This document shows positions 1,033 to 26,266 of a DNA stretch of 29,719 bases, piece by piece. The translations under genes were made by a program, and so were the position numbers. The stretch comes from a virus. Under the pieces are notes generated by a model that ran no database searches, had not been told where the DNA came from, and worked only from the letters and a program-made list of their open reading frames with translations. The stretch covers positions 1 to 29,719 of IMG/VR virus record IMGVR_UViG_3300025736_000124. The stretch is one strand, 5' to 3'. The stretch's first letter is position 1. Every line of letters starts with the position of its first letter.

Positions 1033-3003
1033 CTATGCTCTATGCTCTTCCTGCTCATTTGTCTGAGCGTATAGGATAGCACACCTCGATATCGAGCAAA
1101 TTCTATCACTAAACTCGCGAAAGGATAGGTTTAAGGATCGGCAACGAGCAGGCTCTTCATCATCTCCATGAGCTGTTACTTTGAAAACCGTGCATCCTTT
1201 TTCAGATTCTCCTAGGAGTTCATAAAAATCGCCACCATCCAAAGAAACAAAACATTTTATACCAATACCCCTTTCAGATTCCAGAATTATCTCACGAGGA
1301 TAACTGATATTTTCAAAGTTTTTAGTTAAGTTTATTTTTCCACTGTCAATTCTAAATGGTATTTCGTCTGAATCGTCATCCTTTGTACCTTGTAAAAAAT
1401 CATTCACATTACTACTAGAACTACAAAACTCTAATTTTTCTATATCAGAACTAGTAATATATCTATGAAAGAATTTTGCATCAATCCCAGTGTGTATGTA
1501 CCAATTTTCTGTTCTTAAATTTCTTTCTACTACTACATCAGATAAAACTCTATTAATCGAACCATCTAAATTATATAATGTTACATCACCTAATGAGCAA
1601 AATATACTTAATCCTTTTCTACCCATTGCTCCTGCTTCTAATCCATCTTTACTTGCTCCATCAAATAATGGTTGTATCTTTGCTGATATTAATTTTGGAG
1701 TATCACCAGTTGTTGCATAAATACCATTATATCCTAAGAAGAATAATGTACCCAATGTTTTTACCCAGCCTTCACCTGAAATACAACCAACTCCTAAATC
1801 AAAACTTGTTGGTATTGGCTGTGTACCATTATATGTAGCTAAATTATATTTATTAGCTATCATCATTATATCACCAATATTTGTAAATAATGTTAATGCA
1901 CTATTATCTCCTCCAGTTAATTTCATAGTGTCATATCTTTTTACATTTTCACCCGAAGCTGCATTATCTACCCATCTAAATACTCTTGCACCCGTATAAG
2001 TACCATCTACCCAAATTTCATCAGATGAATTAAAATTTACTCCACTAGCAAATGTAATTGCATTTATTTGAAAACTAGTTTCTGTTTTAGCCTTTACAGT
2101 TAAGTCAGCAATTTTTGTACCACCCCTATAAATATCTAATATATCAGTAGCATATATATATTTTGTATCAGTTACTGTTACCCAATCGTCTGCTCCTGGT
2201 GTGGTGTGGTCGCCGTCAATTAAACCAACTATTCCTAATGGTTCTGATGACTTCATAATTCCAGTTGGATATCTTGTTGAACCAATATAATAATCTCCAA
2301 TATATAATCTATCTTTATAAAAATTAACTTTATTTGCTTTTGGTGAATTATATAAATGTCCTGTTGCTGTTGCTGATGTTACTACATTTAAACTATTTGC
2401 AGAAAAAGTAATTGTTGCATCTCCAGTACCAGTAGCCTTTGTTAATGTTCCACTTGCAGATGGACTACCAGTGCCAGAAGTAGTTAATGAAGTACCCCCA
2501 GCTATTGTAGCAAGAACAGTAAACGTTTTACCATTATTAGTATAGGTAGCACCAATAGTTGCATTTGCAGCAGTAACAGTAAAGAAATATTGATTAGAAT
2601 TAATATATCTATTGGAGTCTGTTCCATTCATTATGAAAAGACAGCTTTCTGCTTCTACAAAATCGCAAGTTGCTGCTTCTAATCCTGTACCTTCACCTAA
2701 TAATGATGTCCATACTGATGAATTATTAAGATAGTAGATTGAAGTTGTTGCTGCCACGCTGGAAACCCTATACATATTTTTTCCTTCACTATCAAAGTAA
2801 TATAATCCAAAATTTGCAGTTGAAGCCAAAGCATTTCCTAATCTTATATATCCATTACGTTTCGTTACCGTGCCTATTTTATCACCTCTTGCGTTCTCAG
2901 CTATTTCTAATTCTTGACGTTTCGAAATTACATGAGATACTATCATGTTTACGCCATCAATATAACTTATTTCTAATCTTTTCAATTGTGATTTTGTTGA
3001 CAT
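1033..3003 (-). CDS. Tail nozzle / tail tubular protein B-like
   Basis: 656 aa, no signal peptide or membrane segment. The sequence is a series of short beta strands with blade-like repeats such as DRLYIGDYYIG, DILDIYRGGTKIADLTVKA, MMIANKYNLATYNG and LFFLGYNGIYATTGDTPKLIS, as in the beta-propeller nozzle proteins of podoviruses (T7 gp12 / P22 gp10 type). It follows the adaptor-like gene with only a homing endonuclease gene between, which is the usual adaptor-nozzle order. An Ala/Thr/Gly-rich insertion around residues 140-210 looks like an inserted Ig-like or linker domain. The C-terminus contains several Cys residues (C617, C630, C635, C639 region), unusual for a phage tail protein. The assignment rests on pattern, length and order rather than a diagnostic motif. 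Confidence 0.6.
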   Translation of the reverse strand: MSTKSQLKRLEISYIDGVNMIVSHVISKRQELEIAENARGDKIGTVTKRNGYIRLGNALASTANFGLYYFDSEGKNMYRVSSVAATTSIYYLNNSSVWTSLLGEGTGLEAATCDFVEAESCLFIMNGTDSNRYINSNQYFFTVTAANATIGATYTNNGKTFTVLATIAGGTSLTTSGTGSPSASGTLTKATGTGDATITFSANSLNVVTSATATGHLYNSPKANKVNFYKDRLYIGDYYIGSTRYPTGIMKSSEPLGIVGLIDGDHTTPGADDWVTVTDTKYIYATDILDIYRGGTKIADLTVKAKTETSFQINAITFASGVNFNSSDEIWVDGTYTGARVFRWVDNAASGENVKRYDTMKLTGGDNSALTLFTNIGDIMMIANKYNLATYNGTQPIPTSFDLGVGCISGEGWVKTLGTLFFLGYNGIYATTGDTPKLISAKIQPLFDGASKDGLEAGAMGRKGLSIFCSLGDVTLYNLDGSINRVLSDVVVERNLRTENWYIHTGIDAKFFHRYITSSDIEKLEFCSSSSNVNDFLQGTKDDDSDEIPFRIDSGKINLTKNFENISYPREIILESERGIGIKCFVSLDGGDFYELLGESEKGCTVFKVTAHGDDEEPARCRSLNLSFREFSDRICSISRCAILYAQTNEQEEHRA

Positions 3004-3010
3004 ATTGATT

Positions 3011-3730
3011 TTAATTATTTAAAAATTCTTTTATTTGTTCTTCATTATTATTTTTTATTCCATATTTCTTATGAAATTTTTTATGTTCTTTTTTTGAGAA
3101 TGTAATTCCATTATCTATAGCTAATCTTAATTCAGGATATTTAGAAAAGTTCTTAATATGATGAGCATTTAATTTCCCGCCTTTTATATTACTCTTCTGA
3201 CATATCCAGTTATCTCTTGCAAAGACTGCCTCTCTCCATAGTCTATATTCTATACAATTTCTAATTTTATCATTTTCTGTAGATATACCACCTTTCCAAT
3301 TATGATTTTTTTCTCCACTATTTCTACCAATATTAGATTTACTCATTTTTTTTCTAGTTTCTATAGAATGATGTTTACCATATAATGGATGATTTTTACC
3401 AGAATTAATTTTACGTCCTCTGTTTGCCAAACTTATCTTTTTTTTAGATTTTTCTAACATGTGTTTACCATAAAACGGATTATTTTTACCACTTTTTGCT
3501 TTACTCATATTTTTTTTGGCTTCATCAGAACGAAGAATACCAGTCATTGATATACTCATTTTTTTCTTTGTTTCATCTGAATGATGTCTACCAATTTGTG
3601 CTTTACTCATATTTCTCTTAGCTTTCTTAGACGGTTTTTTACCAATTTTTACTTTACTCATCTTTTCTAATGTTTCTTTAGAATATACATTTGTTTTCCC
3701 CTTATTCCATGGTATCTTTATTTTTCTCAT
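3011..3730 (-). CDS. HNH homing endonuclease with NUMOD3 repeats
   Basis: 239 aa. Residues 1-145 are a run of about six NUMOD3 DNA-binding modules, each of the form 'GKxHsxETrKKMSkxxxG' (for example HHSDETKKKMS, HHSIETRKKMS). The C-terminal third holds an HNH nuclease core: WREAVFARDNWICQ, then LNAHHIKNFSKYPELRL and IDNGITFSKKEHKKFHKKYG. The His-His of AHHI and the later N and H residues are present, but the second CxxC zinc pair of related enzymes is replaced by SKKEH, so zinc binding may be partial. It is packed between the adaptor and nozzle genes with 7-8 nt gaps and starts after an AT-rich leader. It is probably a free-standing mobile endonuclease rather than a phage structural gene. Confidence 0.9.
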   Translation of the reverse strand: MRKIKIPWNKGKTNVYSKETLEKMSKVKIGKKPSKKAKRNMSKAQIGRHHSDETKKKMSISMTGILRSDEAKKNMSKAKSGKNNPFYGKHMLEKSKKKISLANRGRKINSGKNHPLYGKHHSIETRKKMSKSNIGRNSGEKNHNWKGGISTENDKIRNCIEYRLWREAVFARDNWICQKSNIKGGKLNAHHIKNFSKYPELRLAIDNGITFSKKEHKKFHKKYGIKNNNEEQIKEFLNN

Positions 3731-3738
3731 ATATTTAT

Positions 3739-5124
3739 TTAAACATTAGATGATGTACTAATTCCAAAAGAATCTAAGGAATTATTTTGTTTATGGCTGA
3801 TAATTTTCATATTTTGGATAGCAATTTTAAATGACTCAAAGTGTTCTTTAGCATTAGATTTGTCAAGTTTTCCAGAAGCCCTATAAAGCATCCAATCAAT
3901 AATCAAATAAAAATTATTATCAGGAATTTCAACTGAATCGTAGTATGAATTTAAAACTGTTGATTTTTTCTTATAGTAAACATTATATGTATCAGCACCA
4001 GTTGGAATTGGAGAAAAACCAATATATGCACCTCTTAAAAAATAATTTACATTGCCATTACTATAAATAGCATCAGCATCATTTTTAGGAACATTTTTAA
4101 TATTTATCGTGTTTATTAAATCTCCATCACTATCCGTAACTGACCTTATGTCACTAAAATTAGTCGGTAGAGCATACTCTTGAGTTCCAGATACTGTTGT
4201 AACTGTCCACTCATCAGCAATATTATAATTCTGATTTACTAGGTTAAGCTCGTTTTGAATCTTTGAAATTGCCTCATTCAGCCACCTAAAAGCGTCAGAA
4301 TTATCTATAAGTTTTTGCTCCTTGTTATTAAGCTGAGAAAAAAAGGCATCAAATATATCCTTCACAGAATTTTCTGAAAATCCTCCATAAGGTATGGCAT
4401 TAGAATCACTTGTTTTCTGTTTTGTTATAGAATTATAAAAACAAAAGAATCCATACCCAGTAGTATTTACAGTATCTTCATAAACAGTAAATGTTCGATT
4501 AGCTTGTACATTAATACTATATTTTATTGAACCAGTACCAATCGTTCCAGTATCGGCATCAAGTCCAGTAGCATTTGTTACTTCAAAATAATCAGTTCCT
4601 ATCCCTGTGACTTCGAACGTTTCATTATTAGCAGCATCAAGATTTTGAGCATTAATAATAACTTCACTATTTATCTCAACAATAGCATCTATATCTGGGT
4701 CTGTTCCTGTTCCAGTATATGTATATTTAAAAACATTACCAGTTTCGTCTGAAACAGTAAATTCAGTAGTAGAATCACCCATACTTTTAGTAAGAGGATT
4801 TTCAACAGCACTAAAGGTGGCAGCAGCAGTTTGATAATATTTAACTTGATTATATCCTATAATAGTTACTTTAGTATCTTGAGCATGGGCATATTTAGTA
4901 GATGGTGTAATTGTTATTGTATTTGTAGAAGTAGTTACTCCAGTAATTTTTACTATTTCAGAAGATTGAGAACCAAAATTACCTATTAATGCAAATTTAT
5001 TAGTAACTGCACAACTACTATTATTTAAAACAAGAGACGCTTGTCCAGATGTATAATTTGTACTTAAATAACTAAATTTAGCACCCTTAAGAAGCTGTCT
5101 GTTATCACTATTTAAACTTAACAT
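3739..5124 (-). CDS. Head-tail adaptor-like protein with N-terminal extension
   Basis: 461 aa. The C-terminal ~200 residues (from about residue 250) match the pattern of podovirus/siphovirus adaptor proteins: FRWLNEAISKIQNEL, then a beta segment EYALPTNFSDIRSV, IGFSPIPTGADTYNVYY.KK, VEIPDNNFYLIIDWMLYRAS and a final helix with AKEHFESFKIAI. The N-terminal ~240 residues are beta-rich and Thr/Asn-rich and look like a fused Ig-like or ring-binding domain. An adaptor joins the portal ring to the tail. Here it lies far from the portal gene, separated by the head, sugar and repeat-protein genes, but next to the nozzle gene. It is preceded by a promoter and leader cassette at 5129-5219. Confidence 0.55.
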   Translation of the reverse strand: MLSLNSDNRQLLKGAKFSYLSTNYTSGQASLVLNNSSCAVTNKFALIGNFGSQSSEIVKITGVTTSTNTITITPSTKYAHAQDTKVTIIGYNQVKYYQTAAATFSAVENPLTKSMGDSTTEFTVSDETGNVFKYTYTGTGTDPDIDAIVEINSEVIINAQNLDAANNETFEVTGIGTDYFEVTNATGLDADTGTIGTGSIKYSINVQANRTFTVYEDTVNTTGYGFFCFYNSITKQKTSDSNAIPYGGFSENSVKDIFDAFFSQLNNKEQKLIDNSDAFRWLNEAISKIQNELNLVNQNYNIADEWTVTTVSGTQEYALPTNFSDIRSVTDSDGDLINTINIKNVPKNDADAIYSNGNVNYFLRGAYIGFSPIPTGADTYNVYYKKKSTVLNSYYDSVEIPDNNFYLIIDWMLYRASGKLDKSNAKEHFESFKIAIQNMKIISHKQNNSLDSFGISTSSNV

Positions 5125-5128
5125 ATTT

Positions 5129-5255: not shown

Positions 5256-8200
5256 TTATTTTATTCCATATCTACCAATTTCATCTATACTACCATACAT
5301 ATTTATAATATCTATTGAACCACGTGGAGTAAAATCTTCTATTACCATTGATGGTGAAACACTCGGACTTACACTAGGACTAATACTAGGAGATATACTT
5401 GGTGAAATAGAAGGACTCAAGCTCTGAGAAGGACTTTGGCTAGGACTAATAGAAGGAGATTCTGATGGACTAATTGAAGGTGATTCAGAAGGACTTATAG
5501 ATTGTGATATTGAAGGTGATATACTAGGAGAAATAGAAGGAGATATTGAAGGAGAAATAGATGGACTAAAACTAGGACTAATTGATTGACTAATTGAGGG
5601 ACTTATAGAAGGTGAAATACTAGGAGATATACTCGGACTAATACTAGGTGATTCAGATGGAGAAATACTTGGAGAAATAGATGTACTAGGAGATTCTGAA
5701 GAACTAATAGAAGGTGATTCACTGGGACTAATTGAAGGACTAATACTAGGACTTATACTAGATGAAATTGAAGGACTTATTGAAGGTGATTCTGAAGGAC
5801 TTATTGAAGGTGATTCTGAAGAAGAAATACTAGGTGATATACTCGGTGAAATAGATGTACTAGGACTTTGACTAGAACTAATAGAAGGAGATATACTAGG
5901 GGATATACTAGGACTTATAGACGGAGAAATAGAAGGAGATTCACTAGGACTAATACTAGGACTAATACTCTGACTAGGAGATTGACTTGAAGAGATACTT
6001 GGAGAAATACTCTGTGATATTGAAGGAGAGATTGAAGGAGAAATACTAGGACTGATACTCGGTGATATTGAAGAAGAGATAGATGGACTTAGTGAAAGTG
6101 AGATACTAGAACTTATACTAGGTGATATGCTTGGTGAAATTGAAGTTGAAGGTGATTCTGATGGACTAATTGAAGGACTAATACTCGGTGATATAGAAGG
6201 AGATATACTTGGGGATATAGAAGTAGAAGGAGATTCAGAGGGCGAAATACTAGGTGACTCAGAAGGACTTATACTAGGTGAAATACTAGGGGAAATACTT
6301 GTACTAGGACTTTGGCTAGAACTAATACTAGGTGATATAGATGGAGATAGAGAGGGACTGATTGATGGAGAAATACTTGGAGAAATAGATGTGCTTGGAG
6401 ATTCAGAAGGCGAAATACTAGGCGAAATACTAGGTGATTCTGATGAACTAGGAGAACCTGAGGGTGATAAACTTGAAGACAAACTAGGACTTAAAGAAGG
6501 GCTTATAGATGGAGAGATACTCTGAGATGGTGATTGGCTAGGACTTATACTTGGACTCTCACTAGGCGAAATAGATAGGGATATTGAAGGTGATAATGAT
6601 GGGCTTATACTCGGACTTATAGAAGTACTAGGACTCTCACTTGAACTTATTGATGGACTAAGTGAAGGTGACAAACTAGGACTAATAGAAGGACTTATAG
6701 AGGTACTTGGTGACTCTGATGAAGAAATACTTGGAGACAAAGAAGGGCTCTCTGATGAAGATATACTAGGAGAAATAGAAGGACTTATACTTGGACTAAT
6801 ACTAGGACTAATAGAAGGACTTTCTGATGGACCAACAAACTCTACATTAAAATAATTTGTTTTTAAACTTGTTACCTCTGGAGGTGAAACTGACGGACTT
6901 ATACTAGGACTTATTGATGTGCTTGGACTCTGACTTGATGATATACTTGGTGATTCAGAAGGGCTAATACTTGGTGAAATACTAGGTGAAATAGAAGTAG
7001 AAGGTGATTCTGATGGAGATATACTAGGTGAGATACTAGGGCTTTCACTAGGAGAAATTGAAGGACTTATACTAGGACTTAAAGAAGGACTTTCACTAGG
7101 ACTAATACTTTGTGATGGACTTTGACTTGGACTAATTGAAGGTGAAATACTAGGACTTATACTAGGACTAATTGAAGGACTTTTACTCGGTGATATAGAT
7201 GTACTTGGTGAAACTGAAGGGCTGATACTTGGAGATATACTAGGAGATATTGAAGTACTAGGTGAAACTGAAGGCGATATGCTAGGAGATAAACTAGGAC
7301 TAATAGACGGACTAATTGAAGGACTGATACTTTGACTTGGACTTTGTGAAGGACTAATACTATGACTTATACTAGGAGATATACTAGGAGAAATTGAAGG
7401 GCTTATACTAGGACTTTCTGAAGGCGATATAGAAGCACTAGGAGATTCACTAGGACTAATTGAAGCACTTGGTGATTCCGAAGGCGATATGCTAGAGCTT
7501 ATAGAAGGACTAATACTTGGAGATATGCTTGGAGATATCGAAGTACTTGGACTCACAGAAGGAGATATAGACGGAGATATACTTGGACTAATAGATGTAG
7601 ATGGACTTTCAGAAGGGCTTATTGAAGTACTAGGCGATTGACTTGGAGATATGCTTGGTGACTCTGACGAACTAATACTTGGACTGATACTAGGAGAAAT
7701 AGACGGTGATAAACTTTGACTAGGACTCTGACTAGAACTTATACTTGGCGAAATAGAAGGACTCAAACTCGGACTTATAGAAGGAGAAATTGAAGGACTT
7801 ATACTTTGCGAAGGAGACGTTGAAGACGATATACTAGGAGAAATACTAGGTGAAATACTAGGAGAGATAGAAGTACTTGGAGATTGAGAAGAACTTATTG
7901 AAGGAGATATTGATGGTGATATACTTGGAGATATTGAAGGAGAAAAAGAAGGACTCAAAGACTGACTAGGTGACTCACTAGGACTTATTGATGGAGATAT
8001 AGAAGGGCTTAGACTCTGGGATGGACTTTGTGAAGATGATATACTAGGACTGATACTTGGTGATTCACTTGGGCTTATAGATGGAGAAATTGAAGGTGAC
8101 TCTGAAGATGATATAGAAGGTGATATTGAAGGGCTAATTGAAGGAGATATTGAAGTTGAAGGAGATTGTGAAGATGAAATTGAAGGACTTATACTCGGAC

Positions 8201-8672
8201 TAATACTTGGGGATAAAGAAGGTGAAATTGAAGGAGATATACTTGGGGATATGCTAGGACTCAAACTCTGTGAAGGGCTTTCACTAGAACTAATTGAAGG
8301 GCTTTCACTAGGACTTATGCTAGGTGATAAACTAGGAGATAAGGATGGAGATATGGATATACTTGGAGATTCTGAAGAGCTAATTGAGGGACTTATACTA
8401 GGGCTAATAGATGTACTAGGTGATTCGCTTGATGATATACTTGGTGAAATACTTGGTGATATGGAGGTACTTGGACTTTCGCTTGAAGAGATGCTTGGTG
8501 ATTCACTAGGGGAAATAGATGTAGATGGACTTTGTGAGGAAGATATTGAAGGGCTTATACTTGTACTGGGACTTACTGAAGGAGATGCACTCGGTTGTAT
8601 TTCTAATAAAATACCATCATCAGTTTCCTGTAGTATTTTATCTCCAGTTTCTTGTAATATGTAATCTGCCAT
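5256..8672 (-). CDS. Giant Ser/Pro tetrapeptide-repeat (SPSx) virion protein, mucin-like
   Basis: 1138 aa. Residues 1-27 form a short head with a repeated ILQET/ILLE motif (ILQETGDKILQETDDGILLE), a type seen on phage tail proteins. From about residue 28 to 1105 nearly every second residue is Ser in a period-4 S-P-S-x pattern, x being mostly I, E, T, Q, L or V, with P sometimes replaced by S. Only one non-repeat break occurs, around residues 597-614 (EVTSLKTNYFNVEFVGP). The last ~30 residues are ordinary (VIEDFTPRGSIDIINMYGS...). There is no signal peptide. Serine codons are mixed (AGT, TCT, TCA, TCC), so the DNA repeat is imperfect. Two other proteins here carry the same repeat. A long, extended, Ser-rich fibre or linker that could be O-glycosylated is my inference; no function is proven. 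Confidence 0.8.
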   Translation of the reverse strand: MADYILQETGDKILQETDDGILLEIQPSASPSVSPSTSISPSISSSQSPSTSISPSESPSISSSESPSTSISPSISPSISSSESPSTSISPSISPSISSSESPSISISPSLSPSLSPSISPSESPSISSSESPSQSLSPSISPSISPSISPSLSPSISPSISPSISSSQSPSTSISPSISPSISPSISSSESPSISPSISPSESPSISPSISSSQSPSQSLSPSISPSISPSESPSQSLSPSFSPSISPSISPSISPSISSSQSPSTSISPSISPSISPSISSSTSPSQSISPSISPSISPSLSPSISPSISSSQSPSQSLSPSISPSISPSISSSESPSISPSQSPSTSISPSESPSTSISPSISPSISPSVSPSTSISPSISPSISPSISSSISPSESPSASISPSESPSASISPSESPSISPSISPSISPSISHSISPSQSPSQSISPSISPSISPSLSPSISPSVSPSTSISPSISPSISPSVSPSTSISPSKSPSISPSISPSISPSISPSQSPSQSISPSESPSLSPSISPSISPSESPSISPSISPSESPSTSISPSISPSISPSESPSISSSQSPSTSISPSISPSVSPPEVTSLKTNYFNVEFVGPSESPSISPSISPSISPSISPSISSSESPSLSPSISSSESPSTSISPSISPSLSPSLSPSISSSESPSTSISPSISPSLSPSISLSISPSESPSISPSQSPSQSISPSISPSLSPSLSSSLSPSGSPSSSESPSISPSISPSESPSTSISPSISPSISPSLSPSISPSISSSQSPSTSISPSISPSISPSESPSISPSESPSTSISPSISPSISPSISPSISPSESPSTSISPSISPSISSSISLSLSPSISSSISPSISPSISPSISPSISQSISPSISSSQSPSQSISPSISPSESPSISPSISPSISPSISPSISSSQSPSTSISPSISPSISSSESPSISPSESPSISPSISSSISPSISPSISPSESPSISSSESPSTSISPSISPSESPSISPSISPSISPSISPSISQSISPSFSPSISPSISPSISPSISPSISQSISPSESPSISPSESPSISPSQSPSQSLSPSISPSISPSISPSVSPSVSPSMVIEDFTPRGSIDIINMYGSIDEIGRYGIK

Positions 8673-8721: not shown

Positions 8722-8856
8722 CTATTGCCCGCGGACACAACGCACACAGTAGGTGTTGCTCTTATAGTTGTAGTACACGTTGCCGTTGTGGAAATACACG
8801 CTCAAGGCGCTGCCAGTGTTGTCAGGGTTGGTAGTAGAAGACCAATAGTTGTTGGA
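8722..8856 (-). other. Candidate DGR variable region (VR)
   Basis: The 3' end of the DUF1566 gene (residues 166-209 and stop) is about half G+C (69 of 139 bases in 8722-8860), well above the AT-rich surroundings. It is rich in AAC, TAC, AGC, GAC, CAC and GGC codons, as expected when AAC codons of a template are changed at adenines. It ends in a GC-rich stretch coding for CVRCVRGQ, the position where the initiation-of-homology sequence lies in known DGRs. The matching template repeat was not found in this window. Confidence 0.7.
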
Positions 8857-9351
8857 CTGAGTATTTGGAAAATAGGTCTGGTCAATGTATGGAGCTGATA
8901 TATTAGCATCATATTTTACAATAGATACTAATTCTTTTATATTTGGCAATCTCCAATCACTATATCCAGCATAGGTCCCAGTAGTACCAATTTGGTCCTC
9001 ACAATAAATCTGGGCATTTTCCCAAGTATAAGTTGTTGCTTTATTAGCAACAGTTTTTTGTTCCCACATTAATCCCGTATTTAAGTCATTGACAATAATT
9101 TCCCCACCTACATCTGTGGTAGAATATCTCAGAGTAGCTCCGGATTCATAATACCCGTCATCTCTTAGCTTAGTGCCATAAGATGTTGTCTGCCCAGTTG
9201 CGTGAACTTTAAAATTTAATGCCTCTCTTAAATGAGCCACTGTAACTTTTTTAGTTGTTGGTGTTCCAGAAACATCTACTAAAGGTAATACATCTGTATC
9301 AGCTGGTACATCACCAATAGCATCCATTTCTGTTATTTTTTTATCTGCCAT
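8722..9351 (-). CDS. DUF1566/Lcl C-type-lectin-fold tail protein, probable DGR target
   Basis: 209 aa. Residues 1-45 are a phage tail-anchor segment (KITEMDAIGDVPADTDVLPL, then TKKVTVAHL), also present as the truncated paralogue at 9376-9525. Residues 80-209 are a DUF1566/Lcl domain with the C-type lectin (FGE-like) fold: DLNTGLMWE, WENAQIYCED, YSDWRLPNIKELVSIV, NNYWSSTT and a terminal YCVRCVRG. Proteins of this fold are known targets of diversity-generating retroelements, and the last 44 codons look like a variable region: Asn is AAC in 8 of 8 cases there but AAT in 8 of 8 before it, and Arg changes from AGA to CGT/CGC. It likely displays a receptor-binding lectin on the virion. No reverse transcriptase or template repeat is seen in this window. 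Confidence 0.8.
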   Translation of the reverse strand: MADKKITEMDAIGDVPADTDVLPLVDVSGTPTTKKVTVAHLREALNFKVHATGQTTSYGTKLRDDGYYESGATLRYSTTDVGGEIIVNDLNTGLMWEQKTVANKATTYTWENAQIYCEDQIGTTGTYAGYSDWRLPNIKELVSIVKYDANISAPYIDQTYFPNTQSNNYWSSTTNPDNTGSALSVYFHNGNVYYNYKSNTYCVRCVRGQ

Positions 9352-9375: not shown

Positions 9376-9525
9376 TTATTCTTCCATTAAATACTTTTTC
9401 AAATTAGCTACTGTAACTTTTTTAGTTATTGGAGTTCCAGTTACATCGTCTACTATTACTAGTATGTCAGCATCATCGGGTGTTGCTCCAAGAGCAACAA
9501 GTTCTGTTATTTTTGCGTCTGCCAT
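9376..9525 (-). CDS. Short tail-anchor paralogue of the DUF1566 protein
   Basis: A 49-aa ORF begins MADAKITELVALGATPDDAD and ends with TKKVTVANLKKYLMEE. It is clearly related to residues 1-45 of the protein encoded next (8722-9351): same MAD.KITE start, same D.L...D...GTP.TKKVTVA.L core. It lacks any lectin domain. It may be a real small virion subunit, or the leftover anchor of a second lectin gene that lost its 3' part. It lies 24 nt before the DUF1566 start and 76 nt after the leader ORF of the upstream promoter cassette, so both genes are likely cotranscribed. No Shine-Dalgarno site is visible. Confidence 0.65.
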   Translation of the reverse strand: MADAKITELVALGATPDDADILVIVDDVTGTPITKKVTVANLKKYLMEE

Positions 9526-9600: not shown

Positions 9601-9698
9601 CTATAGCCCATTTATATTAATTATTTTAAAAAAAAGACAAATTAGCCTAAAACGGCTTAAATTCATCTTCATATTTGTATATTATGTATATTTTGTAT
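9601..9698 (-). other. Leader: hairpin plus T8 tract with short ORF (copy 1)
   Basis: Downstream of the promoter at 9706-9719 comes an AT-rich stretch with AATATAC-like repeats, then ATATGAAGATG, the stem AGCC/GGCT (near 9642-9658) and eight T (9635-9628). An ORF from 9672 to 9601 would encode 23 aa starting MKMNLSRFRLICLFFK. It is one base different from the copy at 12376-12493 over 118 bp. It could be an attenuator, a roughly 70-nt RNA, or a leader peptide. Confidence 0.5.
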
Positions 9699-9737
9699 AT
9701 TACATATTATAGCACAAGTCTTTATTTATTGCTATTT
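9620..9737. repeat. 118-bp direct repeat, copy 1 (promoter-leader cassette)
   Basis: This segment matches 12376-12493 with a single difference (C at 9653, T at 12409). It spans the last two codons of a glycosyltransferase remnant, the extended -10 promoter and the hairpin/T8 leader. The near identity between non-coding copies 2756 bp apart points to a recent duplication or gene conversion. Confidence 0.95.
9706..9719 (-). promoter_or_regulatory. Extended -10 promoter upstream of tail-anchor and lectin genes
   Basis: The minus strand reads ACTTGTGCTATAAT: a perfect TATAAT preceded by TGn. It is identical to the copy at 12462-12475. Transcription would start near 9698 and feed the genes at 9525, 9351 and probably 8672. 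Confidence 0.65.
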
Positions 9738-10022
9738 ACTACTCTTTTCGTTCTTTTTTAATTCAGATAATGATTTTTTATCCCATCCATTCACGGGCAT
9801 AAAACGTTCAATAACAAAACTAACTGGATATATCTGCTTAGGATGTTTAAAATTTACAAACTTATCTCTTATATATCTTTTTGTTTTTTGTACTGCTCTA
9901 CCACTCTGATGATAAGGAAAACTGAAATCTGACCCTTGAGTCCTAAACATATGGGAAAACCAAGTTTCCGTATTAACTAAAACTTTTCCTCCTGCCAACC
10001 ATTGAGATAAACTCAATTCTAT
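9732..10022 (-). pseudogene. 3' remnant of a GT2 glycosyltransferase
   Basis: The frame encodes about 96 aa homologous to residues ~231-322 of the glycosyltransferase at 12456-14183: IELSL, KVLVN, (Y/S)HMFRTQG.DFSFPY..., GR.VQKTK.YIRD, KQIYP.S.VI..F.P..GW, and a Lys/Glu-rich end. The homology (codons ATA GAA TTG AGT TTA) begins upstream of any good start and is bounded by a TAA at 10023-10025; the best start would be TTG at 10016, with no ribosome site. The catalytic N-terminal two thirds are absent, so it cannot be an active enzyme. It ends in TAG inside the 118-bp repeat, showing what the 3' end of this glycosyltransferase family looks like without the nuclease fusion. Confidence 0.75.
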
Positions 10023-10062: not shown

Positions 10063-11580
10063 TTAAACGTCTAATTGATAAACTCTATAAGAAAAAGTTT
10101 CATTAGTTGCTCTGTAATTAGTTAAATTTGGTATATTGGCTGATAAAGTAAAATCTTCATCTTCTGCTGAAGTACTATCTGAATCTATTGTTTCCCAAGT
10201 ACTACTATTAATATTATAAACTTGTAAATAAACTGTACTTAAAGTTGGAGATAAACTACTTTGACCTATCCAAGTAATATTTGCATAATTTGAAGCTGCA
10301 TCATATTCTTTAAATTGATGTATTCCATATTGAGAAGAAATAACTGTTTGAGCAACTCTAGCTTCATCATCTGTAGCTACATCTGTATAATCTTGTACAG
10401 AATAAGCAGTACCTAAGTCTGTAGCATCAGCAGGTAAAGCAGCTATATCTTCTCTTGTATAATCTTGCCAACCTGGACTTGGACTTGGTGAAGCACTAGG
10501 ACTGATTGAAGGAGATAAAGAAGGAGACAAACTCTGAGATGGACTTTGTGAGGATGATATAGAAGGTGATAAGCTAGGGCTTATTGAAGGTGAGATTGAG
10601 GTACTAGGACTTTGTGAGGAAGATATACTAGGACTGATACTTGGTGATTCACTTGGGCTTATAGATGGAGAAATTGAAGGTGACTCTGAAGATGATATAG
10701 AAGGTGATATTGAAGGGCTAATGCTTGGACTAACAGAAGGTGAAATTGAAGGTGAAATACTTTGTGAAGGAGATTCTGATGGTGAGATAGAAGGAGATAT
10801 ACTTTCTGAAATACTTGGACTTAAACTAGGAGATATTGAGGTAGAAGGAGATTGAGATGGTGATATTGATGGACTTGTACTTCCTCCTCCAAAAGGAACA
10901 TCTGAACTAAATGTACAAGTATTATTATTAGTTAAATCATTATTATTAGTTGTCTCATCTAATCCATCATTATTAAACTTCCAATAAGCTACTAATCCAG
11001 CTTCATCTCCTACTAATTCTTTCTCATAATTATCTTCTATTTCTTGTGCTGTTCTAACATCATTCCATATTCTTACTTCATCAATAAGCCCATCAAAAGA
11101 CTTACTTGAAGCATCTCCTGGATTATAAGCACCTATAAACAGTGGAGCAGAAGAATTATATATATCCGTAGCACCATTCTGAGTCTTAGTACTGTCTACT
11201 TCAACACCATCTATGTATATAATACCAGTCTGTGATGATGCTACTATAGTCCACGCAATATGATGCCATTTTCCTACATCAGTAGAAGTAAATGCAGTGT
11301 CAATTTCAAAAGCACAATACAAAACACTTGCACTATAATATGCAACATATAATTTATCGTTTATATTTATCACAGATGCGAACGCTCTTTGCCCAGCTGA
11401 CCAATCATATCTATTAAATAATGGAAAATTTACTTCAGCAGTTGATGGTAGTTGTTCTAATTTTATCCAAGCTTCAATAGTAAATGAACCACTTAAATCT
11501 AAACCAGTCTGGTCTCCATCAGTTATGCTCCAAGATTGAGAACTAGATAGTTCTAGGTCTGTACTATTAGAATTGGACAT
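10063..11580 (-). CDS. LamG lectin - SPSx repeat - C-terminal domain virion protein
   Basis: 505 aa in three parts. Residues ~5-230 form a LamG/concanavalin A-like lectin domain, with SGSFTIEAWIKL, the pair KWHHIAWTI and IIYIDGVEVDS, and the typical FDGLIDEVRIWNDVRTAQEI and AGLVAYWKF. Residues ~236-368 are the S-P-S-x repeat shared with the giant protein at 5256-8672, including a 101-bp stretch identical in DNA. Residues 370-505 are a beta-rich domain of unknown family (WQDYTREDIAALPADA..., TYLQVYN-like strand, STWETIDSDS). No signal peptide. This build suggests a fibre or decoration protein that binds sugars, with the repeat as stalk. The first 14 nt overlap the end of the HNH gene at 11567-12061. 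Confidence 0.8.
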   Translation of the reverse strand: MSNSNSTDLELSSSQSWSITDGDQTGLDLSGSFTIEAWIKLEQLPSTAEVNFPLFNRYDWSAGQRAFASVININDKLYVAYYSASVLYCAFEIDTAFTSTDVGKWHHIAWTIVASSQTGIIYIDGVEVDSTKTQNGATDIYNSSAPLFIGAYNPGDASSKSFDGLIDEVRIWNDVRTAQEIEDNYEKELVGDEAGLVAYWKFNNDGLDETTNNNDLTNNNTCTFSSDVPFGGGSTSPSISPSQSPSTSISPSLSPSISESISPSISPSESPSQSISPSISPSVSPSISPSISPSISSSESPSISPSISPSESPSISPSISSSQSPSTSISPSISPSLSPSISSSQSPSQSLSPSLSPSISPSASPSPSPGWQDYTREDIAALPADATDLGTAYSVQDYTDVATDDEARVAQTVISSQYGIHQFKEYDAASNYANITWIGQSSLSPTLSTVYLQVYNINSSTWETIDSDSTSAEDEDFTLSANIPNLTNYRATNETFSYRVYQLDV

Positions 11581-12061
11581 AATATTGTGTTATTAGTGAA
11601 TAATATATTTTTGACATTTGTATTTCTTTATGATAAGTTCTTTTATGACATTTACTACAAAGAGTTACACCATTATTTATATCTAACCTTTTTTCTGGAT
11701 AATCTTTAAATGGCATAATATGATGTGCATTTAATTTTTTATTAGAACCACAATCTAAACATCTAAAAGAATCTCTTTTAAATACTTCTCTTTTCCATTT
11801 TTTAGCTTCACTACTGTTTCTCAAATAATGATTAGTAATTCTTTCATTTCTTTTGTTCTGCCAATTATAATGTTTATTACCAGATAAAAAACCTTTTAAT
11901 CCTTTATTCCAAGGAGTAAAACCCTTAGAAAAACCATTATTATTACCAAGACTAGCACAACTTCTACACATTCCAGTTCCTAAATTTTTTCTATACCAAA
12001 AAGTTTTATATTTTAAATATTCAATCTTTCCACATTTCTTACATTTCCATTTTTTCAACAT
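11567..12061 (-). CDS. HNH homing endonuclease with N-terminal zinc ribbon
   Basis: 164 aa. The N-terminus has a zinc ribbon (CKKCGK at residues ~7-12 and CRSCASLG at ~32-39). A NUMOD-like segment follows (NNNGFSKGFTPWNKGLKG), then the HNH core: WKREVFKRDSFRCLDCGS, LNAHHIMPFKDYPEKRLD, NNGVTLCSKCHKRTYH. Both CxxC pairs and the catalytic His-His are present, so it appears intact. It overlaps the LamG-SPS gene start by 14 nt and lies 4 nt after the stop of the small gene at 12066. It is likely a free-standing mobile endonuclease expressed from the promoter at 12462-12475. Confidence 0.9.
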   Translation of the reverse strand: MLKKWKCKKCGKIEYLKYKTFWYRKNLGTGMCRSCASLGNNNGFSKGFTPWNKGLKGFLSGNKHYNWQNKRNERITNHYLRNSSEAKKWKREVFKRDSFRCLDCGSNKKLNAHHIMPFKDYPEKRLDINNGVTLCSKCHKRTYHKEIQMSKIYYSLITQYYVQF

Positions 12062-12368: not shown

Positions 12369-12383
12369 AATTCTTATTATTTT

Positions 12384-12454
12384 AAAAAAAAGACAAATTA
12401 GCCTAAAATGGCTTAAATTCATCTTCATATTTGTATATTATGTATATTTTGTAT
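12384..12454 (-). other. Leader: hairpin plus T8 tract (copy 2)
   Basis: After the promoter the minus strand carries ATATGAAGATG, a stem AGCC/GGCT with a 6-nt loop and eight T (12391-12384). Here the short leader ORF starting at 12428 is in frame with the gene at 12368 and has no stop between. The predicted RNA to the end of the T run is about 70 nt. Confidence 0.5.
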
Positions 12455-12455
12455 A

Positions 12456-14183
12456 TTACATATTATAGCACAAGTCTTTATTTATTGCTATTTTACCTAT
12501 AAATCTTCCAGTTTTTTTATCCTTAGGATGTGGATTTATTTTTTGAGCTAAACTCATTTTTTGTTTAGCTTCTTCAGAATGATGTTTTCCTAACATTCCT
12601 TTTGGATATCCATTTTTATATACCTTTTTTTTACCTATCAATTTATTAGCATATTTTTGTACTCTAATATCTGTTTCTTTTGTTAATCCTTTATTCCAAC
12701 CAGAATTTCCCATATTTGCTTTACCAATCTTTTCTTTAGTTTTATCTGAGCGAGGTATCCCTTTATTCCAAGGTATATTTCCTTTATGTGCTTCTTTCAT
12801 CTTGTTGATTGATTCTTCAGTATGTTTTTTGTCATAAAAGCCATTACCTTTTCCACTTTGTTGTAAACTCATTTTAGCTAAAGATTCTGAAGTATGTTTT
12901 CTACCTAAATTCGAACCTGCTATTGGATTTAGATTATACATTTTTCGCCATCCAATTTTACTTTTATATTCATCAATAAATTTTTGTTCATGTTTGATTA
13001 AATCTTCTTTTTTACAAAAATATTCTATATTAAAAGTAAAGTTTTTTTCTCCATATTTATTCCAAGCAGATTGTAAATATTTATTTTCATGGTCTTTTCT
13101 ATGCAACATCCTTAGATGTTCTCCAAATCTTCTTGCTAAATTTATTGCCGAACCAATATAAATCTTTTTATTAACTTTATTTTTAATTGAATAAATGCCT
13201 GGTCTTTCTACTTTCATTTCATTTTCTCTTAGATTTTGAATAGCATCATCTTTCCAACCAGGAATTGGTTCAAACTGATATATAACTTTTGATAATGGAT
13301 AAATTTGCTTATCCCATTTATTCTCAAAGAATAAATCTCTTATATATTTTTTTGTTTTTTGTACTGTTCTACCTCTTTGTTCATACGGAAAACTGAAATC
13401 GCCCCCTTGAGTTCTAAACATATGGGCATAGAATGTGGAATGATTTACAAGAACTTTATGTCCTAATGTTCTTGTCTTTAAACTCAATTCTATTCCTTGA
13501 TTTCCCCATGAACCAGCCCTTTCATCACACACTTCATATTCCCAATACCTCTCACGAGTACACATGAAAAAACTTCCTTGTAAACTCATAGTTTCAGTAA
13601 AACCTGTTTCTAACTCTTTTTTATATTTATCTGTTTTCTTATAAGCATTAAAATATTGAAAATGAAAATTTGAATCGAAACAATAACTCTTGCTTTGTGG
13701 ATTATGTTTTCCTATCCATTTCATCTGATGTCTTATCTTATCGCTAGTACCACAATCTGGACATATTGTTGGTGTTGGTCCTTGATATTTCTTCCAACCA
13801 CATTTCCAACATTTCCAATCAAATGCCCATAGATTACGCATAATCGGCACCATCATGACGTCATCACCCATCTTCTTAAATCCTTCAATCATTTTAGTAT
13901 CAAAATCTTTATCAAATGAACAGTGGGCATCACATTTAGCCACATACTTCGCTCGACTCAATTTAACTCCTAAGTTTGTTGCGGCTCTTTGTCCTATAGA
14001 CTTTCCTACATAAATTATATTTACTCTATCGTGTTGCGGTATCTGGGGATTAGCCCATTTGCCGTCTAAAACAGCTATTATCTCTGTGTCTGGTCCAGTA
14101 TTTTCAAGAAGGTCTTGTATAGTTCGAGCTAGGAACATTTCTGAATTGGCGGGGATGATTACTGATAATAAATACTTTTTCAT
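12456..14183 (-). CDS. GT2 glycosyltransferase fused to GIY-YIG/NUMOD3 homing endonuclease
   Basis: 575 aa. Residues 1-~322 are a GT-A glycosyltransferase of the GT2 clan: LLSVIIPANSE, VLDG, a CDAHCSF motif (D85, H87) like the DxH metal site of polypeptide GalNAc-transferases, TMSLQGSFFMCTRE, WGNQGIELSLKT and HMFR. A zinc-ribbon insert lies at C125/C128/C141/C144. At residue ~325 a GIY-YIG nuclease begins: PGIYSIKN (328-335), YIGSA (342-346), Arg351/352 and Glu in KHEQKFIDEY (~399), then several NUMOD3 modules (HTSESLAKMS, HTEESINKM, HHSEEAKQKMS). The glycosyltransferase part is full length. Comparison with the remnant at 9732-10022 shows the family normally stops just where the nuclease begins. 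Likely a homing gene inserted at the 3' end in frame; the enzyme may still be active. Confidence 0.85.
   Translation of the reverse strand: MKKYLLSVIIPANSEMFLARTIQDLLENTGPDTEIIAVLDGKWANPQIPQHDRVNIIYVGKSIGQRAATNLGVKLSRAKYVAKCDAHCSFDKDFDTKMIEGFKKMGDDVMMVPIMRNLWAFDWKCWKCGWKKYQGPTPTICPDCGTSDKIRHQMKWIGKHNPQSKSYCFDSNFHFQYFNAYKKTDKYKKELETGFTETMSLQGSFFMCTRERYWEYEVCDERAGSWGNQGIELSLKTRTLGHKVLVNHSTFYAHMFRTQGGDFSFPYEQRGRTVQKTKKYIRDLFFENKWDKQIYPLSKVIYQFEPIPGWKDDAIQNLRENEMKVERPGIYSIKNKVNKKIYIGSAINLARRFGEHLRMLHRKDHENKYLQSAWNKYGEKNFTFNIEYFCKKEDLIKHEQKFIDEYKSKIGWRKMYNLNPIAGSNLGRKHTSESLAKMSLQQSGKGNGFYDKKHTEESINKMKEAHKGNIPWNKGIPRSDKTKEKIGKANMGNSGWNKGLTKETDIRVQKYANKLIGKKKVYKNGYPKGMLGKHHSEEAKQKMSLAQKINPHPKDKKTGRFIGKIAINKDLCYNM
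12462..12475 (-). promoter_or_regulatory. Extended -10 promoter inside the 3' end of the GT-GIY-YIG gene
   Basis: The minus strand reads ACTTGTGCTATAAT, an extended -10 box. It lies within the last codons (KDLCYNM) of the upstream fusion gene. It would drive the genes at 12368, 12061 and 11580. Confidence 0.65.
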
Positions 14184-14189
14184 ATTATT

Positions 14190-14927
14190 TTATTTTTCTT
14201 TTGATAAGTCAAATATTTTCTTTAAATCCCATCCTGGTATATCTTCTTCTTTTATAGTTTCCCAATTTTCTGGTTTACGCCTGAATGATTCCATCGTAAT
14301 TTTTGGTGAACTGAATGTCCTACCATGTCTGATGTCAATATTCGGTAATTTTGAATGCCATACTTCACTTTTATCATCTGAGAACCCACCACGTCTTTTT
14401 CTCTTTCGACCAGGCTCATATCCCCAGATTCTAGCTTTTCTGGGTTCCCTACTCCTTATATCATCAAGTCCCCAGTCTTTTATTTTAATTTGTCTTTGAT
14501 GATAATGGTCTAAAATGAACTTCCTATTTGCACACATGCATGACAGAGGTAACATACCATCATATCTAATAGCGATGCCATCTCCACCATAACGCCACCT
14601 CCAAACATTTGAATTATAAAAAAATACATTATCCTTAGTTGGCGTAAACAAGAAATTTTCGTAACTGTAGAGAACATCATGCTCTGTCATATAAACATAA
14701 TCAGCAGTACTTTTCTCTAAAGCTAAAACAATCTGGTCAACCATAGTTGGATATGAGCGAAGACGATTTTCGAGTACATAATTCTCACCAAAATCAATCG
14801 GTTTTAATGATACAGATATAATTTCTCCTTTAAAAGCCTTTTTAAGTTGTTCTCGACAAGCTTTTATTATCGGATGTCCCTCAATACGATTGTCTGAATA
14901 ATATATGCAACCAATTTTTTTATTCAT
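14190..14927 (-). CDS. Glycosyltransferase-like protein (non-GT2)
   Basis: 245 aa. It starts IGCIYYSDNR, then has KGEIISVSLKPIDFGEN, a helix VDQIVLALEKSTADYVYMTEHDVLYSYENF and CMCANRKFILDHY. The EHDVLY string looks like a DxD-type nucleotide-sugar site in a GT-A fold. It is clearly paralogous to the protein at 16628-17263, which shares IISVS.KPIDFG.N, an A..KF/YV....E.DVLY..E.F.F.P stretch and a C-terminal HG segment. Residues ~165-180 are very basic (EPGRKRKRRGG). It lies 6 nt upstream of the GT2-nuclease gene in the sugar-modification block. Which sugar and acceptor it uses cannot be told. Confidence 0.6.
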   Translation of the reverse strand: MNKKIGCIYYSDNRIEGHPIIKACREQLKKAFKGEIISVSLKPIDFGENYVLENRLRSYPTMVDQIVLALEKSTADYVYMTEHDVLYSYENFLFTPTKDNVFFYNSNVWRWRYGGDGIAIRYDGMLPLSCMCANRKFILDHYHQRQIKIKDWGLDDIRSREPRKARIWGYEPGRKRKRRGGFSDDKSEVWHSKLPNIDIRHGRTFSSPKITMESFRRKPENWETIKEEDIPGWDLKKIFDLSKEK

Positions 14928-14943
14928 ATAATTATATAATTAT

Positions 14944-15561
14944 TTATTCTTTAATCCACATCCAACTTCTTCGTCTATCTCTAACTTCTCCTGGTTTAGT
15001 TTTTCTACTTCCTAAAATATAATATTTTTTTATTCCTAATAATCTAGCACAAAGGTCTACTGCAAACTTAACATGACAAGCTCTAAGACCATAAAAATCT
15101 CTTCCTTGTATTGCATAATCGTGCCCTGATAATACTCCTCCACTTTTTAACTTACGATGCCATTCATATATATCTTCTATGATATATCTAATAGCGTGGT
15201 TACTATCGATATAAACAAAATCTAAACTCTCATCTTCAAAATCTTCTATAGCTTTCATTGATGTTTTCTTGACAATTTTATAGTCATATCCTTTTAATTT
15301 TTCTTTTGTTTCTCTAAATAATTTATTATAAGGAAGTTCTTTAGGATGTTTTCTATAATTTTTATAATTTATCCAAGGGTCAATAGCATATACTTTTAAT
15401 CCAGCTTCACAAAGTTCTCTTGTATATTGTCCTCTATAAACACCTATTTCAGCTCCTACTTTATAACCTCTTTCTTTAAAAAAATTGGGTAAATCATCTC
15501 TGCCACAATTAGGTATTTCTATACGATTACCTTCTAATTTAATTCCATCTTCAATTTTCAT
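14944..15561 (-). CDS. Class I SAM-dependent methyltransferase (Methyltransf_24-like)
   Basis: 205 aa. Motif I is GAEIGVYRGQYT (residues ~36-47), followed by an acidic strand end YAIDPW (D61), then a helix KLFRETKEKL, an acidic FEDESLDFVYIDSNHAIRYIIED (motif IV region) and a GGVLSGHDY strand. This is the common pattern of phage and bacterial Methyltransf_24 enzymes often placed in sugar clusters. Its start ATG overlaps the TGA of the upstream gene (ATGA at 15558-15561), so the two are translationally coupled. Substrate unknown; given the neighbours it may methylate a sugar. Confidence 0.75.
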   Translation of the reverse strand: MKIEDGIKLEGNRIEIPNCGRDDLPNFFKERGYKVGAEIGVYRGQYTRELCEAGLKVYAIDPWINYKNYRKHPKELPYNKLFRETKEKLKGYDYKIVKKTSMKAIEDFEDESLDFVYIDSNHAIRYIIEDIYEWHRKLKSGGVLSGHDYAIQGRDFYGLRACHVKFAVDLCARLLGIKKYYILGSRKTKPGEVRDRRRSWMWIKE

Positions 15562-16094
15562 AGGTTTGATAAGTCTTTTAAGTTGCTTAAAATAGTTGTT
15601 CTAGGATAACACTTAGTATCGTATCTATATTTAAATAAAGGAAATATCTCTGAATATTTATAATGCCAATCATTTTTATCATCTGTATCGTGAACAACAA
15701 TGTAATCCGCATTATTAGCTAATCTTCTTATTTCTTCTTTTCTTCTTGGTCCTGGTGCGTGGTCTACTAATACGACACTCCAATGCTCTGATAAATCTAA
15801 ACTATCCCAATCATTTATATCTACAAACTTAAATGTATGATAAGAAGGATAATCATTTACTAATTCTCTTCTATCTTCAAATTTCCAAAAGTCATTAAAT
15901 TCTGACTTACTTTCACAAGATACCAATTTACGCTTCTTATCAAAACAAGCCCAGTGTAAATATGGACTAGAGAATAATCCCATACCTAGTTCCAAAACGG
16001 AACCATCTGTCATATTCATAATTTTCATTAAGATTGGTAGATGAGAACCTCCTCCTATGTGTGTATGCATATTTAAACTATTTATTTTAGACAT
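15558..16094 (-). CDS. Methyltransferase-like protein
   Basis: 178 aa. A Rossmann-type motif LELGMGLFSSPYLHW (residues ~34-48) is followed by KLVSCESKSEFNDFW, where E marks the SAM-ribose position, then WSVVLVDHAPGPRRKEEIRRLANNADYIVVHDTDD and a YPRTTILS end. This fits a small class I methyltransferase or a relative without a fully typical motif I (LGMG for the usual GxGxG). The gene starts 6 nt after the upstream methyltransferase gene and ends in an ATGA overlap with the next. Substrate unknown. Confidence 0.6.
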   Translation of the reverse strand: MSKINSLNMHTHIGGGSHLPILMKIMNMTDGSVLELGMGLFSSPYLHWACFDKKRKLVSCESKSEFNDFWKFEDRRELVNDYPSYHTFKFVDINDWDSLDLSEHWSVVLVDHAPGPRRKEEIRRLANNADYIVVHDTDDKNDWHYKYSEIFPLFKYRYDTKCYPRTTILSNLKDLSNL

Positions 16095-16100
16095 ATTGTA

Positions 16101-16631
16101 TTATTTTATTATTTTTTTAAATTTTGCATATATTTTTTTAAATTTTATCCCTATTTTCCCTTCCAGTTTGAATCCATTCTCTTCAATTAATGTCTTTAAT
16201 TCTTCTTTAGTCCAATTATGGTAATGGAAAGGTTCTATCATCTTCTTTTTTGGCAACGGTGAAACTATATAAAGATACAATTTCAACACACGTCTGGCTT
16301 CTTTCAACCCATTCTCAGGGAACTCTAAGTGTTCTAAAACATCTCCCATAAATGCAGAATCGAATTGTTCATCCTCAAATGGTAGTTTATATACATCACC
16401 TAGAATTATATTAACTCCTCTTTTCTTAGCTGCTTTAATAGCATAATATTCATTATCAACACCAATAGCTCCAGTCAAGTGTTCTAAAAGTCCATCACCA
16501 GCACCTATATCAAGAAAATTTTCTTCCTTTATCCATTTTACAATATTATCAATATGTTTTTTATAATTATCAGACCTATTATACCATTTAAAATGATAAC
16601 CGCCATATCTTTTATATTTTGAGAATCTCAT
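16101..16631 (-). CDS. SAM-dependent methyltransferase (Methyltransf_11-like)
   Basis: 176 aa. Motif I is NFLDIGAGDGLLEHL (residues ~39-53), then GVDNEYYAIKAAKKRGVNIILGDVYKLPFEDEQFDSAFMGDVLEHLEFPENGLKEARRVLK, all standard for a Methyltransf_11 enzyme: D after strand 2, GD at strand 3, and the acidic D..... VLEH of motif IV. The C-terminus is very basic (KFKKIYAKFKKIIK). Its ATG overlaps the TGA of the upstream glycosyltransferase-like gene (16628-16631). It is the clearest methyltransferase of the three. Confidence 0.8.
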   Translation of the reverse strand: MRFSKYKRYGGYHFKWYNRSDNYKKHIDNIVKWIKEENFLDIGAGDGLLEHLTGAIGVDNEYYAIKAAKKRGVNIILGDVYKLPFEDEQFDSAFMGDVLEHLEFPENGLKEARRVLKLYLYIVSPLPKKKMIEPFHYHNWTKEELKTLIEENGFKLEGKIGIKFKKIYAKFKKIIK

Positions 16632-17263
16632 AAGAACATTTTATTATGGATAAATTTCGCTTCTCCCCAATAAGGTAATTCTTTTAATGGTTTCTCCTTT
16701 TTATATCCTGTTCTTTGTGAAACTCCGTGTCCTGTTTTAAATGTAATTGCTGGATTACCAGTCCAAGAGTATTCATCTCTTGTTGTGAATACCAATGGCA
16801 ATGTCTTATATGGTAATTCTTTCCAATTATCAAGAGTTACTTGTTTTTCTATACTATCTATCCAGAATTTACGACCACATATTTGACATCCTTCTGAAAA
16901 ACCTTTTCTCCAAAACTTTCCTTTGTTTTTCCAATAAATATATAAGTTTGTATAACGATATACTTTGTCTTCAACTGGTGGAATAAACTTAAAGTATTCT
17001 GGTGGATATAATACATCTGATTCACAAGCTAAACAAAATTTAGTTTTAGCTGCTTTTAAACCTGTTAATAATTGTCTATAACAATTTGTATAACATACTG
17101 GTTGTTCTCCAATACATATATTATGTCCAAAATCTATAGGTTTTCTGGATACACTTATTATTTTAATACCATTAGATTGCTTTAAAATATTATCTCTTAT
17201 CTTCTTTTCAAATGATTCATCCTCATCATTTGAAGTATAAAAAATAATTGTTACGTCGTTCAT
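16628..17263 (-). CDS. Glycosyltransferase-like protein, paralogue of 14190-14927
   Basis: 211 aa. It shares with its paralogue the IISVSRKPIDFGHN motif, a helix LLTGLKAAKTKFCLACESDVLYPPEYFKFIPP and a C-terminal TGHGVSQRTG region. ESDVLY is the likely metal/nucleotide-sugar motif. It is shorter at the C-terminus and lacks the basic stretch. It follows the 28-aa ORF at 17268-17354 by 4 nt and is coupled by ATGA to the methyltransferase gene downstream. Sugar and acceptor unknown. Confidence 0.6.
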   Translation of the reverse strand: MNDVTIIFYTSNDEDESFEKKIRDNILKQSNGIKIISVSRKPIDFGHNICIGEQPVCYTNCYRQLLTGLKAAKTKFCLACESDVLYPPEYFKFIPPVEDKVYRYTNLYIYWKNKGKFWRKGFSEGCQICGRKFWIDSIEKQVTLDNWKELPYKTLPLVFTTRDEYSWTGNPAITFKTGHGVSQRTGYKKEKPLKELPYWGEAKFIHNKMFL

Positions 17264-17267
17264 TTTT

Positions 17268-17354
17268 TTATGTTTTTCTTACTAAAATACTTTTATGACC
17301 TTTTTCAAAGCCATTTCTACTATTTGGATTTTTACCTTGTTTATATTTTGTCAT
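17268..17354 (-). CDS. Tiny ORF, possible homing-endonuclease remnant (28 aa)
   Basis: ATG at 17354 opens a 28-aa frame beginning MTKYKQGKNPNSRNGFEKGH. The string NSRNGFEKGHKS resembles the linker just before NUMOD or HNH parts of homing endonucleases (compare NNNGFSKGFTPWNKG in the HNH gene at 11567-12061). It fits closely between two genes (gaps of 3-4 nt). It may be a decayed endonuclease or a real micro-gene. Confidence 0.35.
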   Translation of the reverse strand: MTKYKQGKNPNSRNGFEKGHKSILVRKT

Positions 17355-17357
17355 ATA

Positions 17358-26071: not shown

Positions 26072-26266
26072 TTATTTTTTTAAACTTTTTTTAATTATAT
26101 CTCTTTTCTTTCCTATCTTAGTCTTCTTAACTTCACCACGATAAGACTTTCCATCCTTATAACAAATATGTAAATATTCGCTAGGATTTGGTTTAACTGT
26201 CCTAACACGACCATTTTCACGAACACATTTTAAAAATAATTTCGGGATATATTTATACCTTTCTAT
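26072..26266 (-). pseudogene. Start-less ORF remnant directly after the HNH gene
   Basis: The frame from 26266 to TAA at 26072 is open for 64 codons but contains no ATG, GTG or TTG. Its translation looks like a real protein end: KLFLKCVRENGRVRTVKPNP, then SEYLHICYKDGKSYRGEVKK and a Lys-rich tail. It stops 4 nt before the ATG of the next gene, the usual spacing here. The HNH gene stop lies right at its open end (26263). Most likely it is the 3' part of a gene cut by the HNH insertion; an unusual start codon (for example ATC after AGAAAGG) is a less likely option. Confidence 0.5.

Follow-up and report, generated by a model that had tools for sequence, protein, structure and literature searches.

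A DUF1566 adhesin gene with a probable DGR variable region at its 3' end in a phage genome fragment without reverse transcriptase or template repeat

The components of a diversity-generating retroelement (DGR) usually lie close together. In the Mtd/Brt DGR of Bordetella phage BPP-1, the target binds the receptor and its variable end has a C-type-lectin fold. DUF1566 proteins are known DGR targets, as had been pointed out in an earlier note on the DNA studied here and as three of the loci described below (L144, L057, and L037) bear out; among the targets in PMC4159848 and PMC6642488, no other Pfam domain is as common. Orphan targets accompanied by neither reverse transcriptase (RT) nor template repeat (TR) occur in Treponema denticola (PMC4891356), RT-less DGR fragments occur in Nanoarchaeota (PMC4372165), and PMC8144416 states that fragmentation of an assembly causes remote targets to be overlooked. 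The phage adhesin gene described herein resembles the DUF1566/Lcl_C targets in its domain, in a probable variable region (VR) that takes up the very end of the gene and has AAC-rich variable codons, in an A-free, GC-rich 3' tract, and in the ends of the repeat. It differs from them in that neither RT nor TR, nor any Avd match among the ORFs scanned, was found on the fragment, and in that its contrast in composition is stronger than in any homologue examined.

The analysed record, IMGVR_UViG_3300025736_000124, is a linear fragment of a virus genome, and its whole length of 29,719 bases is referred to as the window. Among its products are an SU10-like major capsid protein, a P22-like portal, and an SU10 adaptor. 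Cultured relatives, as judged by the capsid protein, show only 25–31% identity and have varied hosts. Because capsid relatives in IMG/VR are found on contigs of up to 101 kb (65-, 89-, and 101-kb contigs among them), the 29.7-kb record may amount to a third of the phage genome or less. The sole near-identical contig in IMG/VR, L001 (IMG sample 3300031227), matches at 99.97% over 5964 bases and ends at window position 9103; no further contig spanning 8722–8859 was found when sought through the downstream flank. A search of 150 Elusimicrobiota genomes with the major capsid protein, run without a positive control, returned no prophage relatives. The features of the adhesin gene and its neighbor are as follows:

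8722..9351, minus strand: adhesin gene, a 209-aa ORF with an N-terminal virion-anchor-like segment and an Lcl_C (DUF1566) C-type-lectin domain (PF07603, E=3.8e-36)
9202..9351, minus strand: N-terminal anchor-like segment, residues 1–50, similar by tblastn to the 49-aa ORF below and to a gene of the relative L034
8731..9096, minus strand: Lcl_C/DUF1566 C-type-lectin-fold domain, residues 86–207, from the Pfam match and an AlphaFold2 model
8722..8859, minus strand: putative DGR variable region, codons 165–209 plus the stop codon, 138 bases, from the GC3 changepoint, the TR:VR ends of L037 and L057, and the NNY columns
8727..8749, minus strand: IMH-like tract CTGTGTGCGTTGTGTCCGCGGGC, 23 nt, A-free and 70% GC, with a presumed role as such
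9379..9525, minus strand: 49-aa anchor-only ORF, a paralogue of the adhesin N terminus without the lectin domain, from repeat detection and tblastn

The match to PF07603 (Lcl_C, formerly DUF1566) covers residues 86–207 of the adhesin with a score of 124.4 bits, against a curated cut-off of 34.9. When the lectin domain was modeled alone with AlphaFold2, the pLDDT reached 87.8; the model of the whole protein was poor (pLDDT 50.8). The top PDB match of the domain model was the C-terminal domain of Legionella Lcl (8q4e, E=1.8e-5), followed by many weaker C-type lectins, and the viral structure matches included DUF1566 proteins from uncultured phages. No named phages with a related lectin were found. 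The likeness to the Legionella domain comprises both the fold and a detectable sequence similarity, although Lcl is a bacterial collagen-like adhesin for which no description as a DGR target was found. We infer that the adhesin is a surface or tail protein that binds the host.

An abrupt change in codon use and G+C had been noted at 8722–8856, and these coordinates proved correct to within one codon. The best GC3 changepoint of the adhesin gene is codon 165 (coordinate 8859), where GC3 rises from 0.20 to 0.74, a contrast matched by none of 5000 shuffles, and GC3 drops back at the stop codon. The G+C content of 8722–8856 is 0.496 in a window of 31.8%, the segment being among the 11 top 135-base starts, all of which overlap the same spot; other 44-codon stretches of the window have a GC3 of at most 0.41, against 0.75 in the segment. 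Codon counts also confirmed the switch from AAT to AAC and from AGA to CGT/CGC: all eight Asn codons upstream are AAT and all eight inside the segment are AAC, and Arg is encoded four times by AGA upstream and by CGT or CGC inside. With 41 AAC and 382 AAT codons (9.7% AAC) in the other genes of the window, the chance of eight AAC out of eight is 7.8e-9. The GC3 jump of 0.54 exceeds that of every one of 128 homologues (maximum 0.37). As a stand-alone DGR marker, however, such a jump was rejected as non-specific, since L057 (−0.01), out of four TR-linked genes, lacks it and some genes with no known TR show it; some DUF1566 homologues show milder jumps (0.25–0.37) with no TR in the locus examined. 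The codons at the end of the gene (AAC, TAC, AGC, GAC, CAC, GGC, and ACC) do fit adenine mutagenesis of AAC, as had been suggested, but they are equally ordinary one-step changes. The codon list by itself is therefore weak, and the case is carried by the boundaries of the segment and by the comparison with real TRs.

When the conserved core of the lectin domain was used as a query for homologues, 10 viral and 80 bacterial loci were obtained, and TRs were found in L057, L037, and L046. The TR of L057 differs from two target genes at template adenines in 16/16 and 19/19 cases, and 20 of the 22 TR:VR differences in L037 are at template A. In L046, 17 differences at A and 7 others were counted over a fixed 120-base span; in the 40-codon aligned stretch, only the second-last codon differs at a base other than A. 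The contig of this locus stops close to the TR. Scanning with a degenerate pattern yielded L144, which comes from the same sample as L001 (3300031227) and from a different genome. Its positions 2543–5127 hold a complete DUF1566 DGR, with two Lcl_C genes, a bAvd gene, TR, and RT, and within the repeat all TR:VR differences are at A (14/14 and 19/19). RT matches lie at most a few hundred bases from the TR in L037, L057, and L144, as computed from coordinates with contig C42 taken as the contig of L057. For the methods that gave a negative result on the window, the loci L037, L057, L046, and L144 provided the positive controls.

Both ends of the adhesin segment coincide with the ends of these repeats. 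Its 5' end (ACT CAG TCC AAC) is the point where TR:VR identity starts in L037 (ACG CAG TCC AAC) and L057 (GCT GTT TCG AAC), and its 3' end is at the stop codon, as in the repeats of the same two loci. At 14 of the 14 columns where most of the homologous templates (L037, L057, L144, and L046) read AAC or AAT, the window codon is NNY. The codons at these columns are AAC, AGC, TAT, CAC, and TAC, with TAT186 and TAT196 standing where the L037 TR reads AAT. The 23-nt IMH-like tract is one of only four A-free runs of at least 18 nt on the minus strand, and an A-free, GC-rich 3' end is likewise present in the homologous DGRs. As in DGR target genes, the segment occupies the 3' end of a C-type-lectin-fold domain; a variable end of this fold is shared with BPP-1, although the target family is different. 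The hairpin found just downstream of the VR in BPP-1 has no clear counterpart at the adhesin, where there are AT-rich stems only: 8 bp downstream of the stop codon is an 8-bp AT-only stem with an 8-nt loop, and a stem of at least 6 occurs in 19% of 80-mers taken at random from the window. Several real DGR targets among the homologous loci also lack a downstream hairpin. When the segment was compared with the four homologous TRs, 11–14 differences at A and 20–29 at non-A were found per template, with no A enrichment; given so many non-A mismatches, these templates have diverged and none is the donor.

The proposal that 8722–8856 is a DGR variable region was thus upheld in part: the repeat ends, the variable columns, and the A-free, GC-rich 3' end are those of the L037, L057, and L144 DGRs and of the L046 TR. 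Counted against it are the lack of RT and TR in 29.7 kb, the absence of the segment's own template from all the sets searched, and differences that are not A-enriched. Weighing these, we give a probability of about 0.8 to 8722–8859 being the part of a target gene that a DGR varies, and the 3' end of the adhesin gene would, judging by its sequence, have been written by a DGR. So read, the adhesin is an ordinary kind of DGR target with its machinery absent from the fragment, not a new system. The target gene would be a fusion of the phage's own kind of short anchor with a DUF1566 C-type-lectin domain. The TR RNA would be reverse-transcribed, with random bases placed opposite the template adenines, and the cDNA, from the A-free, GC-rich tract leftwards, would take the place of the target's 3' end, so that about a dozen exposed codons, and with them the binding specificity, would be changed.

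In agreement with the earlier note, neither RT nor TR was found in the window. A search for RVT_1 in the 29.7-kb record, itself a fragment, gave no match, and the same search recovers the RTs in the homologous DGR loci; among the 17 Pfam-scanned ORFs of the window, there was no bAvd-like match. A template inside the window was rejected after an ungapped scan of both strands, in which the best match was 68/150. Scans of IMG/VR with the 3' tract, a degenerate codon pattern, and the full A-to-N superset pattern found no donor; the matches were L144, which has a different TR, and poly-A artefacts, and such scans may not cover records that are very near the window. Because the best homologues come from Elusimicrobiota, 341 genomes of this group were searched, and none contained a template. 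The L144 template was itself rejected as the donor, since it mismatches at 20 non-A positions and its 3' end is different (CGTCCGGTCCGTGCC vs CGTTGTGTCCGCGGG). Given a DGR variable region, our first choice, with about half of the weight, is that the unsampled remainder of the phage genome contains RT and TR; about a third goes to an orphan or captured region, and about an eighth to diversification in trans. The likelihoods of these last two overlap with that of the main reading, because each of them describes how the machinery of a DGR-written region might have been lost or borrowed.

The alternative that survives best, although we consider it rather unlikely, is an orphan VR, the lectin having been acquired already diversified, or RT and TR having been lost, with a sequence that is now static. 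Neither RVT_1 nor Lcl_C was found in 15 capsid relatives, including the 65-, 89-, and 101-kb contigs. In the relative G006 (locus L034), the slot of the adhesin is filled by a tail-region gene (2759–3328) whose 189-aa product resembles the adhesin in its N-terminal segment but has, at the C terminus, a BclA_C-like domain (match under the Pfam cut-off). On one side of the slot is a glycosyltransferase gene; on the other is a gene that starts with MAFLLQETGDKILQ in L034 and with MADYILQETGDKILQ in the window. By tblastn, the anchor segment of the adhesin matches window positions 9388–9525, within the 49-aa ORF, at 61%, and identity to L034 3206–3328 is 55% for the 49-aa ORF and 45% for the adhesin's own anchor. 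Since a syntenic gene carries a different C-terminal domain on a similar anchor, the lectin is probably a swapped-in module on an anchor of the phage lineage, which favors an orphan. Like the adhesin, the orphans of T. denticola and Nanoarchaeota combine a target gene and a variable region with no RT nearby; unlike it, they belong to cellular genomes and are comparable with known TRs, whereas the adhesin was compared with homologous TRs only. What speaks against an orphan is that the domain is otherwise in the AT-rich codon use of the phage and its last 45 codons are not, suggesting that the end was written after the arrival of the domain, although such a contrast is possible in DGR targets anyway (GC3 passes from 0.40 to 0.69 in the L037 target).

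That the VR is diversified in trans, the DGR belonging to the host or to a co-infecting phage, is considerably less likely. The complete DUF1566 DGR of L144 does come from the sample that contains the 99.97% identical phage piece, and in BPP-1 a transplant of the IMH and hairpin region was enough to retarget the DGR to a heterologous gene (PMC3240598). Against this stand the exclusion of the L144 template as the donor and the failure to find any other. Slightly less likely still is the fuller scenario of a phage that has the target half only, on a modular adhesin made of an anchor and a swapped-in lectin, its VR being rewritten in trans by the retroelement of a host or co-infecting phage of the same lake community. 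Finally, ordinary recombination bringing in a GC-richer DUF1566 3' end, or an assembly chimera, would accord with the missing template, with the homologues that jump in GC3 with no TR in the locus examined, and with the sole independent contig ending short of the segment, but is improbable, since both segment ends are DGR repeat ends in homologues, the reading frame is intact, as are the conserved framework residues and all of the AAY columns, and a chimera would require two in-frame junctions 138 bases apart.

If the segment is a DGR variable region, the adhesin is an added DGR target of a sort that ordinary DGR searches miss because they start from an RT adjoining the target. Such targets may be recognizable by a sharp switch in composition whose ends fall at known TR:VR ends. 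Were the machinery to act in trans, the host range of a phage could be diversified without a phage-borne retroelement.

Several other features of the fragment were observed. Long SPSISPS-type serine-proline repeat proteins are encoded at 5256–8672, 10063–11580, and 19858–20724; the product of the first has 1138 aa, with the repeat nearly throughout, and L034 has an SPSASVSP version. A cluster of glycosyltransferase and methyltransferase genes (14190–18146) separates the capsid genes from the adhesin region. At 12456–14183, the reading frame of a glycosyltransferase-2 gene extends into homing-endonuclease domains of the GIY-YIG and NUMOD3 types; the L001 version of this gene encodes 581 aa instead of 575 aa, the difference being at its end. 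Three more NUMOD3 or HNH endonuclease-like ORFs (3011–3730, 11567–12061, and 26263–26808) make the fragment rich in homing-endonuclease genes. A direct repeat of 118 bp, 99% identical, is present at 9620–9737 and 12376–12493. Adjoining it, 9732–10016 is a fragment of a glycosyltransferase gene with 78% identity over 130 bases to 13335–13464, and the two together suggest a partial duplication directly upstream of the adhesin gene.
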